Below are positions 35,078 through 52,371 of a stretch of DNA of 64,000 nucleotides, in pieces (position 1 is the stretch's first letter; the number at the start of each line of letters is the position of its first letter). Source of the DNA: Arcticibacter pallidicorallinus. Lineage in GTDB: Bacteria > Bacteroidota > Bacteroidia > Sphingobacteriales > Sphingobacteriaceae. The position numbers and the translations under genes are program-made. The stretch covers positions 62,001 through 126,000 of the forward strand of contig NZ_PVTH01000006.1 of the NCBI RefSeq assembly GCF_003002875.1. The letters are read 5' to 3'. The notes under the pieces were generated by a model that ran no database searches, had not been told where the DNA came from, and saw nothing but the letters and a program-made list of their open reading frames with translations.

Positions 35078-35085
35078 TAACTTTG
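35078..35085 (+). promoter_or_regulatory. -7 box of rnpB
   Basis: TAACTTTG matches TAnnTTTG and ends 4 nt before the predicted RNase P RNA 5' end. It follows the cytochrome stop codon directly. Confidence 0.5.
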
Positions 35086-35089
35086 TAAC

Positions 35090-35460
35090 GGTTGTTCCAT
35101 CGCCGGGTATTTATATCAGGAGGAAAGTCCGGGCAACACAGAGCGTCTTGCTTCCTAACGGGAAGGGCACATCTTTGATGTGTACGGAAAGTGCCACAGA
35201 AAACAAACTACCCGGATTGCTTGCGGTTCGGGAAAAGGTGAAAACGTGAGGTAAGAGCTCACGGCTTTGTATGGCAACATGCATCGCGGTAAACCCCAGG
35301 AGTTGAAAGACCAAATATGCTGGCGACTGAAGGCTGCTCGTCTTAGTTTTGCTTCGCAAATGCGCCAGCGGGTAGGTCGTTTGATCATGTCAGCGATGAC
35401 ATGGCTAGATAAATGATGGAAGCCCTCTTTGGGTGACAGAACCCGGCTTACAGACCTTAT
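35090..35460 (+). ncRNA. rnpB: RNase P RNA (bacterial class A)
   Basis: The conserved cores of RNase P RNA are plain: the 5' region GGAGGAAAGTCCGGGC (35119-35134), GTGCCACAGAAA near 35191, and the 3' region ACAGAACCCGGCTTA. The ends pair as P1 (GGTTGT at 35090 with ACAGACC at 35450-35456, one bulged G). The 5' end is set by the -7 box and is good to a few bases. The RNA removes 5' leaders of tRNA precursors. Reading frames on the opposite strand of this region are spurious. Confidence 0.95.
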
Positions 35461-35461
35461 A

Positions 35462-35499
35462 AAAGAGGGTGTATCATTAATCATGGTCACCCTCTTTTT
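35462..35499 (+). terminator. terminator of rnpB
   Basis: AAAGAGGGTG (35462-35471) pairs with CACCCTCTTT (35488-35497), followed by T, a strong intrinsic terminator just after the RNase P RNA. Confidence 0.85.
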
Positions 35500-35555
35500 C
35501 GTTTCATTCAAGTTGTGAATATCCCGAATACCATGCGGCGGTTTACCTCAGCACT

Positions 35556-35806
35556 ACCGGTGATCTACCTTAGGTCGGCTGCTAGTCTGCTTTAGGTCAG
35601 CCTCTGGTTTGCCGGTAGGTGTAGCTACCATGCAGCCACAGTGGAGCCACAGTGAGGCCACGTTTTTCCCGGTAAAAGGTGGCCTCACTGTGGCCTCACT
35701 GCGGCATCACCCTGGCCTCACCCACCGGCTGGCCACACGCGGATCACTCGCTAGCCCTCAGCAGGCTAACCGTTGACCGTCAGCGTCTAGAAGGCTGATC
35801 ACCGGT
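35556..35806. repeat. 251-bp nested imperfect inverted repeat, unknown function
   Basis: Four pairs of complementary arms nest in order: 35556-35571 with 35791-35806 (14 of 16), 35595-35603 with 35763-35771 (8 of 9), 35605-35621 with 35719-35735 (13 Watson-Crick plus 2 G-U of 17) and 35639-35661 with 35679-35701 (21 of 23 plus one G-U), with a 17-nt loop containing TTTT and AAAA. The right inner arm is an exact tandem of an 11-bp unit (GTGGCCTCACT). No reading frame of note is inside. It could be a structured RNA or a small palindromic repeat element. The flanks 35500-35555 and 35807-35963 show nothing else clear. Confidence 0.75.
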
Positions 35807-35963
35807 GGTCACGTTGAACGTGGGTTTCATGACTCAGTCTATTGGTATTTCACGTATGATACCACTTGTTGCGTTTTTCTAACCAACCTAATCAAAACTG
35901 TATATAATTGTATACATTAGCAAAAACAAAAACTTCTTTTGTGCGTTCAAAAAATAGAACACT

Positions 35964-37352
35964 ATGGCTAAAATTCTAATTGTTGACGACGAGCGGGCTA
36001 TTCGTAATACATTACGTGAGATACTCGAATATGAAGATTATGAAGTGGAAGATGTCGATAACGGCATTGACGGCTTAGCTCTTATACAAAAGCAAAATTT
36101 TGATCTCGTTCTCTGCGATATCAAAATGAACAAAATGGACGGAATGGAGGTCCTTTCTGAAGGACTTGCTATCAAACCAGACCTTCCTTTTATTATGATC
36201 TCCGGTCATGGCACTATCGAAACGGCCGTAGAAGCCAGCAAGAAGGGTGCATACGACTTCATTTCCAAACCACCCGATCTGAACCGCTTGCTGATTACCG
36301 TCCGCAATGCTCTCGAAAGAGGAAATCTCGTAACAGAGACGAAAGTTCTAAAACGAAGAGTCAGCAAAGTAAGGGAGATACTCGGAAATTCACCCGCTAT
36401 CTCCAAGATTAAAGACACCATTGACCGGGTCGCACCTACTGAAGCGCGCGTTTTGATAACGGGTGCCAATGGAAGCGGAAAAGAGCTTGTAGCAAGATGG
36501 CTACATGAGAAATCGAGCCGCGCCAACGGACCGATAATCGAGGTAAATTGTGCAGCCATCCCTTCAGAGCTTATAGAAAGTGAGCTTTTCGGTCACGAAA
36601 AAGGATCTTTTACGTCGGCTGTTAAACAGCGTATAGGCAAGTTTGAGCAAGCCAACGGAGGCACTTTGTTCCTTGATGAAATTGGGGATATGAGTCATTC
36701 TGCGCAAGCTAAGGTTCTTCGTGCATTGCAGGAGAATAAGATCACACGCGTGGGTGGAGAGAAAGAAATTGAAGTGAACGTTAGGGTCGTCGCTGCGACG
36801 AACAAAGATCTGCAGAAGGAGATCGAAATGAACAACTTCAGAATGGACCTTTACCACAGGCTGAGCGTAATCCTGATACATGTACCGCCGCTATCTGATC
36901 GTAAAGACGACATTCCTATACTTGCCGAGAGCTTCTGCAATGAGATTTGTTCAGAATACGGTATGCCGGTTAAAAAATTCAGCGATGGTGCTATTGATGC
37001 ACTCAAGGCGCTTCCCTGGACGGGGAATATACGCGAATTGCGGAATATGATCGAGAGGCTCATCATTCTGAGCGAAAAAACGATCACTGAGAATGATGTC
37101 CGCACTTTTGCGAACCCTTCCGGAGCCGAGCAGCCGGCAACCGCTACAGCAGCTGCTTGGCAAAACACCCAGGTTAACTTTGACCAGTTTGCAAGTTTTC
37201 AGGAGTACAAGGATCAATCGGAGAAGGATTATATCAAGTACAAACTCCAGAAAAACAATTGGAACGTTTCCAAAACGGCGGATGATATCGACATCCAGAG
37301 AAGTCATTTGTATAGCAAAATAGAGAAGTATGGTCTGAAAAGATCAGAGTAG
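35964..37352 (+). CDS. NtrC-type response regulator, sigma-54 activator family
   Basis: 462 residues: receiver domain 1-120 (phospho-acceptor Asp52 in VLCDIKM), AAA+ domain about 140-380 with Walker A GANGSGK (about 167-173) and Walker B LFLDEIGD (about 236), and a Fis-type helix-turn-helix at the end ([21 protein letters not shown]). The loop that normally reads GAFTGA, which contacts sigma-54, reads GSFTSA (about residue 214). No cognate kinase is adjacent, so it is an orphan here. A 251-bp inverted repeat lies upstream of the promoter region. Confidence 0.9.
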
Positions 37353-52310: not shown

Positions 52311-52371
52311 AGATTAACCCATAAAAAAAGGTATCCGGAAATTCCGGATACCTTTTTTTATGGGTTAATCT
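52311..52371. terminator. 61-bp perfect palindrome, bidirectional terminator
   Basis: Arms 52312-52340 and 52342-52370 are exact complements around base 52341, and the outer pair 52311/52371 extends it to 30 bp per arm. The core is GGTATCCGG/CCGGATACC with seven A left and seven T right, so it is a strong terminator for both the nucleoside transporter and citrate synthase. Confidence 0.9.

Follow-up and report, generated by a model that had tools for sequence, protein, structure and literature searches.

A palindrome of mirrored 11-bp units beside rnpB in Arcticibacter pallidicorallinus, a probable solo relative of the mobile gene1 module

The palindrome between rnpB and the NtrC-type gene

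What is the large palindrome that separates rnpB from the gene of an NtrC-type response regulator (ntrC) in Arcticibacter pallidicorallinus? A preliminary description of the window, that is, of the whole 64,000-nucleotide stretch of DNA analysed here, offered three readings: a structured RNA, a leader that controls ntrC, and a non-autonomous palindromic element. The nested inverted repeat described there is present in the sequence, with its arms and their nesting. The inverted repeat is real, and its size is revised from 251 bp to 257 bp, with outer arms that pair from 35553 to 35809.

The element (35553..35809) is an array of 11-bp units inverted around a 17-nt core, GTTTTTCCCGGTAAAAG (35662..35678), which is kept in most copies and is a T-run/A-run mini-hairpin. 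At the base of this mini-hairpin is a G.G clash (C.C on the other strand). The left inner arm, of the 'B' arm type, spans 35618..35661 and comprises four units that read, from the core outward, AGTGAGGCCAC, AGTGGAGCCAC, CATGCAGCCAC and GGTGTAGCTAC. The four units of the right inner arm, of the 'A' arm type (35679..35722), begin with the exact 11-bp tandem already noted, GTGGCCTCACT twice (35679-35700), followed by GCGGCATCACC and CTGGCCTCACC. Weaker 11-bp units make up the left outer arm (35553..35617) and the right outer arm (35723..35809), the latter including CACCGGCTGGC, CACACGCGGAT and CACTCGCTAGC. The inner stem, said to contain one mismatch and one G-U, has one G-U and one A.C clash. 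It had also been stated that no gene lies inside and that the GC content exceeds that of the surroundings; there is no long ORF in the palindrome, and its GC content is 59.9%, the intergenic DNA on its two sides having 44.2% and 33.1%. The 11-bp period and the existence of a 12-copy genome family are the part of the observation that goes beyond this description.

RNA folding, one of the checks proposed, gave -144.5 kcal/mol (z -9.25) for the single + strand and -147.5 (z -8.52) for the - strand, and none of 200 shuffles folded as well on either strand. When the whole 64 kb was scanned for palindromes with 44-bp arms around a 16/17-nt core, this palindrome was the best, forming 33/44 pairs, and the runner-up formed 27/44. 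The latter, at 52340 (ATCCGGAAATTCCGGAT), has A/T runs, is terminator-like and is without 11-bp units. In an Rfam search of the window at the gathering threshold, RNase P was the sole match, and the palindrome matches no curated family.

The neighbouring genes are both on the + strand. RNase P RNA (rnpB, class A) occupies 35083..35466 (Rfam, 245.5 bits) and is followed on its 3' side by a terminator-like hairpin, AGAGGGTGTATCATTAATCATGGTCACCCTCTTTTTC (35464..35500). The NtrC-type response regulator is taken from the ORF list (35964..37352) and its name is read off its sequence. Its start is 155 bp from the palindrome, which lies upstream. Between the two, also on the + strand, is a stretch holding AAAACTGTATATAATTGTATACATT (35885..35917), and a similar motif is kept upstream of ntrC in the congeners compared; here the palindrome lies 5' of it.

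Comparison with relatives reveals that the palindrome is absent at the matching place. The rnpB gene is single-copy in 6/6 Arcticibacter genomes, and the gene order SCO1-like, cytochrome c, rnpB, ntrC is common to the window and to genomes G005 (L072) and G002 (L075), as seen in their ORF lists. A covariance model of the palindrome, run at E values up to 10, had no match within 1.5 kb of rnpB in the five congeners, and in the same run it recovered the window's own copy on both strands. The rnpB-ntrC gap is 497 bp here, 125 bp in G001 and G005, 313 bp in G004 and 370 bp in G002, G003 being left out of the comparison as its ntrC start was not located. In the G002 gap (L075) there is a 16/22 palindrome outside the model's reach, which is perhaps built on another word or due to chance. 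Among the relatives compared, no empty site was close enough to the window site for alignment.

These observations bear on the proposal that the palindrome is a structured regulatory RNA or the leader of ntrC. Its position 155 bp upstream of the gene is what such a leader would have, but the congeners have no model match there, two of them leave just 125 bp between rnpB and ntrC, other copies adjoin unrelated genes, and no Rfam family is matched. We consider this explanation very improbable. The structured-RNA and leader readings found no support in the pairing of the BLAST-found copies, the clash bias or the gene settings described below, or in the position of the ntrC motif.

The hairpin at the end of rnpB has parallels elsewhere. 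A terminator-like hairpin pattern occurs within 300 bp of the palindrome in 5/12 copies of the own genome (a count that includes L017, whose match was unchecked); the share is 1.7% for positions drawn at random and 5.7% for intergenic ones. A 24-mer of the hairpin beside rnpB, with up to 3 mismatches, is found at three genome sites (window 35464-35500; G000:C3:64768; G000:C1:332548), two of which adjoin palindromes. The hairpin may be an insertion target or a part of the element; what is observed is an association only.

A dispersed family with constant spacing and changing words

The blastn check for further copies, also proposed, located 12 places in the own genome; the matches number 21 because palindromes match both strands. 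The unit pattern GTGGCCTCACNGTGGCC, with up to 2 mismatches, has 45 matches in that genome versus 2 for a reversed control. BLAST reached 4/5 congeners and 0/54 other relatives. A covariance model built from 27 copies detected the element in 6/6 genus genomes and, using stricter filters by which weak matches are lost, in 20/151 family genomes (7/25 genera) and in 1/247 genomes of a class-wide draw, this one being the own genome. The copies laid out for comparison number 96 from 18 genomes, 74 from Arcticibacter and 22 from other genera. This set excludes L109 and L112, which have no clear centre, and the weaker model matches of the genus search.

In most copies the layout is a core of 16-17 nt, approximately [GC]TTTTnnCGnnAAAA[GC], followed outward on both arms by 11-bp units, with three to four inner units per arm and then weaker outer units. 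By eye, the A and B arms differ recurrently at units 3-4. The spacing and core are constant and the inner word varies, both between species and within genomes. This word is GTGGCCTCACY in G000, G001 and G005, the last two of which also have another type, ATGGACTTAAC; GTGCACTCACC and GTGCACTCATG in G004; GTGCACTCACC in G002; GTAGGCTCATG, GTGGCTTCATT and others in G003; and STGGACTCACC-like in other genera. Copies in G004 (L127/L128; L115, L116, L120, L121) have about 250-290 bp in common, which could be the natural element size. Pattern matches in Kribbella (L066 near 5781) and Streptomyces (L064 near 4085) were set aside, having a different layout and being probable chance. These two carry tandem GGTGAGGCCAC-like 11-mers that are not in mirror order, the product of chance or an unrelated operator array.

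How stable are the copies? Genomes G001 and G005, with 13 and 14 copies, have 11 sites in common, a site being counted when one or both of its flanks are similar, so the solo copies are, by this measure, old in both and copies can evidently be stable. Among solo copies no near-identical pair at clearly different sites was seen; L144 and L147 are 96% identical over 284 bp, and a broken assembly may have made two loci of a single place. At two orthologous sites in two species (L158/L169 and L148/L049) the inner word differs on both arms, while similarity is retained in the flank and in part of the outer arm, which suggests concerted in-place overwriting by conversion or re-insertion. In another orthologous pair, L056/L057, the core has opposite orientations with respect to the A and B arms, as if the centre had been inverted.

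Whether the palindrome is kept as RNA or as DNA was addressed through its pairing. The covariation check that had been called for was run, and covariation is absent among BLAST-found copies (tests on 28 and 27 copies). In most units of these copies the arms match within a copy no better than between copies. In the 27-copy test 82.2% of pairs are formed versus 81.8% in shuffles, 54/500 of which reach the covariation score. Lack of other copies and lack of covariation had both been named as signs against the original proposal; other copies exist, and covariation is absent in the closest of them. The inner 33 bp, read with the B arm first (the window's + orientation), have 32 G.U versus 45 A.C clashes, and these numbers are swapped on the other strand. 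There is no strong RNA bias here. In the larger, model-found set, which is biased to paired copies by the structure-based model, unit 1 pairs better within copies in 3/9 groups (3/2000, 4/2000 and 0/2000 shuffles) and unit 2 does likewise in one of these groups (0/2000), with weaker signals for unit 2 in other groups (57, 69 and 90 of 2000).

Orthologous copies provide a second view. In nine G001/G005 pairs, units 1-2 changed at 32/396 arm positions (8%) and units 5-8 at 273/792 (34%), a difference suggestive of retained function or gene conversion and not of dead copies. At the inner sites of the same pairs, 4 pairs changed on both sides and were kept and 19 were lost, of which 4 went to G.U, 6 to A.C and 9 to other combinations. 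This pattern suggests that constraint or homogenisation acts on the DNA and not on an RNA strand, with room for some pairing constraint. Given the 4 kept and 19 broken pairs and the biased set, we claim neither RNA selection nor a strict lack of pairing constraint.

The same data inform a broader proposal, namely that the palindrome is mainly a transcript structure such as a bidirectional terminator, an insulator or a UTR hairpin. It is consistent with the very stable fold of both strands, with the location of copies between longer ORFs (though some are crossed by small ORFs), with the terminator-like hairpins near 5/12 own copies and with the better pairing of inner units in 3/9 groups. Set against it are the absence of a strong G.U bias (32 versus 45 A.C, and 4 versus 6 in orthologs), the near-equality of pairing in copies and shuffles, and the terminator-like hairpin that rnpB already has of its own. 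In addition, the gene settings of the copies are tandem, convergent and also divergent, as determined by a crude ORF call. In our judgement this proposal is improbable.

gene1, DUF6266 and the spread of modules

When the loci were compared by tblastx, the same gene family turned up next to copies in all genomes of the genus. This unnamed gene, gene1, adjoins 9/96 laid-out copies, and in 9/9 it reads away from the palindrome with the start of its domain 153-417 bp from the centre. In 7/9 of these a second gene follows approximately 1 kb further on, whose product is DUF6266 (E 1.2e-16). With this profile, 0/22 copies from other genera are beside gene1. Word types accompany particular modules: in G004 a CACC word is found with module L123 and a CATG word with module L127, and in G003 three words are found with modules L136, L146 and L147. 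Solo copy L128 is 87% identical over 249 bp to the palindrome of module L127 in the same genome (G004). This likeness, over a length near that of the window element, supports the solo reading, though the event it would record is not recent.

The gene1 product is about 280-390 aa. The gene1 proteins scanned against Pfam, NCBIfam and PADLOC gave nothing above threshold, and no transposase, recombinase or nuclease family scored above threshold in those scanned (Pfam, NCBIfam, PHROGs, PADLOC, PDB profile). The alignment of gene1 with DUF6266 is collinear but weak (E 0.003, probability 10%). Over 43 residues DUF6266 is similar to fibronectin III (E 0.002), which is not an enzyme. When one gene1 protein each was compared with plasmids, phages and viral contigs, there was no match. 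DUF6266 was seen in viral contigs at 2 loci, which look like chromosome pieces by their ORFs and were rejected.

Across the family, DUF6266 is present in 68/151 genomes and gene1 in 51/151. Of the 20 palindrome-bearing genomes, 20/20 have DUF6266 and 19/20 have gene1, the exception being G140. The hypergeometric probability of the DUF6266 co-occurrence is 2e-8, and 2.7e-6 for the 14 genomes outside the genus, relatedness being ignored in both. Starting from the protein, a palindrome (at least 16/22 pairs around a 16-nt core) is upstream in 11/30 gene1 loci and downstream in 1/30, versus 0.5% in mononucleotide shuffles; five of the 11 upstream finds are modules known from the palindrome side, and 6/25 are new. 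By eye, units around a core can be seen at -113 to -191 in 13/25 of the loci L207-L231, with none clear in 12/25. The 14 other gene1 copies of the own genome (15 scored) all have shorter TAAGTCCGAC-type mirror units approximately 200-270 bp upstream in a by-eye alignment. In the 600 bp upstream of 30 DUF6266 loci the best repeat lag is 11 in 13 loci and 10 in 12, versus 5 and 0 downstream, the statistic being noisy (lag 11 downstream in 5/30). Mirror arrays of 11-bp units are plain upstream of DUF6266 in L198, L175, L177, L181 and L193.

Other features accompany DUF6266. In 19 of the loci L170-L199, many of the regions 60-430 bp upstream have a second array, of 10-bp direct repeats (GTCAAAnnnn or GGCAAAnnnn). 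This is followed by TAnnTTTG, which we take to be a promoter-like motif, and often by GTACCGGTAC or similar approximately 70 bp before the start. In L200, L201 and several of the loci L170-L199, the genes downstream often encode a small lipoprotein and a holin-like membrane protein or an endolysin-like one, and resemble a stand-alone lysis cassette, with names given by eye from translations. L200 also has cas1/cas2-like ORFs (by eye).

The gene1 modules are multi-copy and include near-identical pairs at unrelated sites: L255/L256 are 99.3% identical over 1512 bp, L257/L258 98.8% over 1220 bp and L259/L260 98.4% over 1335 bp. L246 shares about 94% over 1457 bp with L247-L249, and other module groups are at 84-91%. 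Judging from these identities, gene1 modules have spread recently. Homology between modules starts 261-531 bp before gene1 and, in 7/8 groups (counting L251/L253 and L252/L254 apart, though they are related), ends at -2 to +11 of the gene1 stop codon. The exception is L246-L249, where the shared stretch extends beyond the stop by 156 bp, and by more still among L247-L249. The final two stop-codon bases of L263/L264 and of L251/L253 belong to the flank and are not the same (TGA, TAG). In L255, L257, L252, L259 and L264 the left end is found 75-137 bp outward from the centre, near the palindrome's outer edge; these distances are for modules where a centre was found, the automatic search having missed it in several. 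No target duplication or terminal inverted repeats were seen on inspection of the module ends.

There is another way to view arrays that accompany these genes. A host protein of the nucleoid, segregation or repressor type might bind the phased 11-bp units of both arms on the chromosome; gene1 and DUF6266 would then use the array as an operator, and solo copies would act on the chromosome or on neighbour genes. This is consistent with the near-exact 11-bp phasing and symmetry, the preservation of inner units (8% versus 34% change) at sites common to two species, the arrays upstream of many gene1 and DUF6266 starts, and a concerted change of unit words that looks like coevolution with a binding protein. 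It is at odds with the turnover of sites between species, the coexistence of several words in one genome and the lack of a match in 131/151 family genomes at this sensitivity. We regard such a chromosomal array as unlikely, though clearly less so than a transcript structure.

A probable solo element and its closest known counterparts

Of the three readings offered at the outset, the non-autonomous palindromic element is the one that fits; the structured RNA and the ntrC leader are not supported. The fitting one agrees with the 12 dispersed copies, with the five congeners having no model match around rnpB and with the 87% identity of L127 and L128. The window copy is best read, from its sequence and that of its relatives, as a solo, MITE/REPIN-like relative of the mobile gene1 module. 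That it is a solo, non-autonomous copy of a Sphingobacteriaceae mobile-element family, of which the gene1 module is the full form, we hold to be somewhat more likely than not. The full element would consist of the palindrome of inverted 11-bp units near its left end, a spacer and gene1, with the gene1 stop codon as its right end in most groups seen, and solo copies would hold the palindrome alone. The 11-bp units are putative phased binding sites, approximately one per DNA helical turn, for a module protein, most likely the product of gene1 or DUF6266, and a hairpin or cruciform may be the recognised form. The module protein would have spread the solos in trans, much as MITEs depend on transposases and REPINs on RAYTs. 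The window copy would then be a solo derivative spread in trans, with gene1 as a candidate mover.

A bolder proposal, which we put forward tentatively and would not expect to hold in full, is that gene1 and DUF6266 represent a new class of bacterial mobile element. Such an element would be characterised by a single protein of no assigned fold, no target-site duplication (TSD) or terminal inverted repeats (TIR), a left-end palindrome of 11-bp units serving as an address in helically phased or cruciform form, a right end that is the stop codon (completed by target DNA in several copies), and solos whose word changes in concert per genome. If the solo reading is right, a gene family in Bacteroidota (DUF6266, gene1) would be a candidate for a mobility system whose DNA address is defined. 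The many copies, several address words and matching gene variants would amount to a natural specificity experiment. The same reading would account for strong intergenic palindromes that could be mistaken for riboswitches or terminators.

In the openly licensed literature, as far as its available text goes, we found neither an account of elements like these from Sphingobacteriaceae nor any article dealing with DUF6266. The accessible part of a comparative genomics study of two Arcticibacter species describes CRISPR palindromes and few transposable elements (PMC5435697). The closest concept to the Arcticibacter palindromes is that of REPINs, which the portion consulted describes as palindromic, multi-copy, non-autonomous DNA associated with RAYT (Bertels and Rainey 2011, PMC3116915). 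REPs are 20-40 bp long according to the text available on GTAG REPs (PMC3733652). As far as these excerpts go, the likeness lies in the inverted-repeat architecture and in a genome having more than one sequence group, with groups close to a gene of their own. The difference is that here approximately 250 bp are made of 11-bp units, the own genome is without a Y1 transposase and the partner gene, gene1, is without a known domain. On inspection, no GTAG or CGTC end tag and no 20-40 bp unit was found in the palindrome copies, the units being of 11 bp with no such constant end. That the palindrome is itself a REP/REPIN moved by a RAYT (Y1 tyrosine transposase) would agree with its multi-copy, palindromic nature and the pairing of word types with gene-family members; yet PF01797 has 0 matches in the own genome and is positive in 5/14 control genomes, which leaves this origin highly doubtful.

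A second counterpart is the BrickBuilt MITE of Porphyromonas gingivalis, also of the Bacteroidota, which in the text available has 19 copies, 23-nt head-to-tail repeats and small inverted ends (PMC4596501). Going by that text, both elements are multi-copy (19 there, 12 here), intergenic and based on a short tandem repeat. They differ in that here 11-bp arrays form both arms in mirrored order, a relative that carries a gene is seen, and no TSD or TIR was seen. With respect to MITEs in general, the element is multi-copy, short, non-coding and palindromic. As to a parent element, the gene1 module shares the palindrome and has spread, and the gene1 proteins scanned match no known transposase family.

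Inverted arms of short tandem repeats are also a feature of foldback elements, for example Galileo, which are eukaryotic and have a P-superfamily transposase. The tandem-repeat arms are the likeness, which is by description only, and the eukaryotic setting is the difference. Finally, parC of plasmid R1 contains two sets of five 11-bp iterons that are bound by ParR and arranged as direct repeats around a promoter. Both systems have phased 11-bp repeats, which serve as a protein-binding array in parC and putatively do so here. In contrast to the dispersed mirror arrays of Arcticibacter, the parC repeats are direct and are not dispersed.
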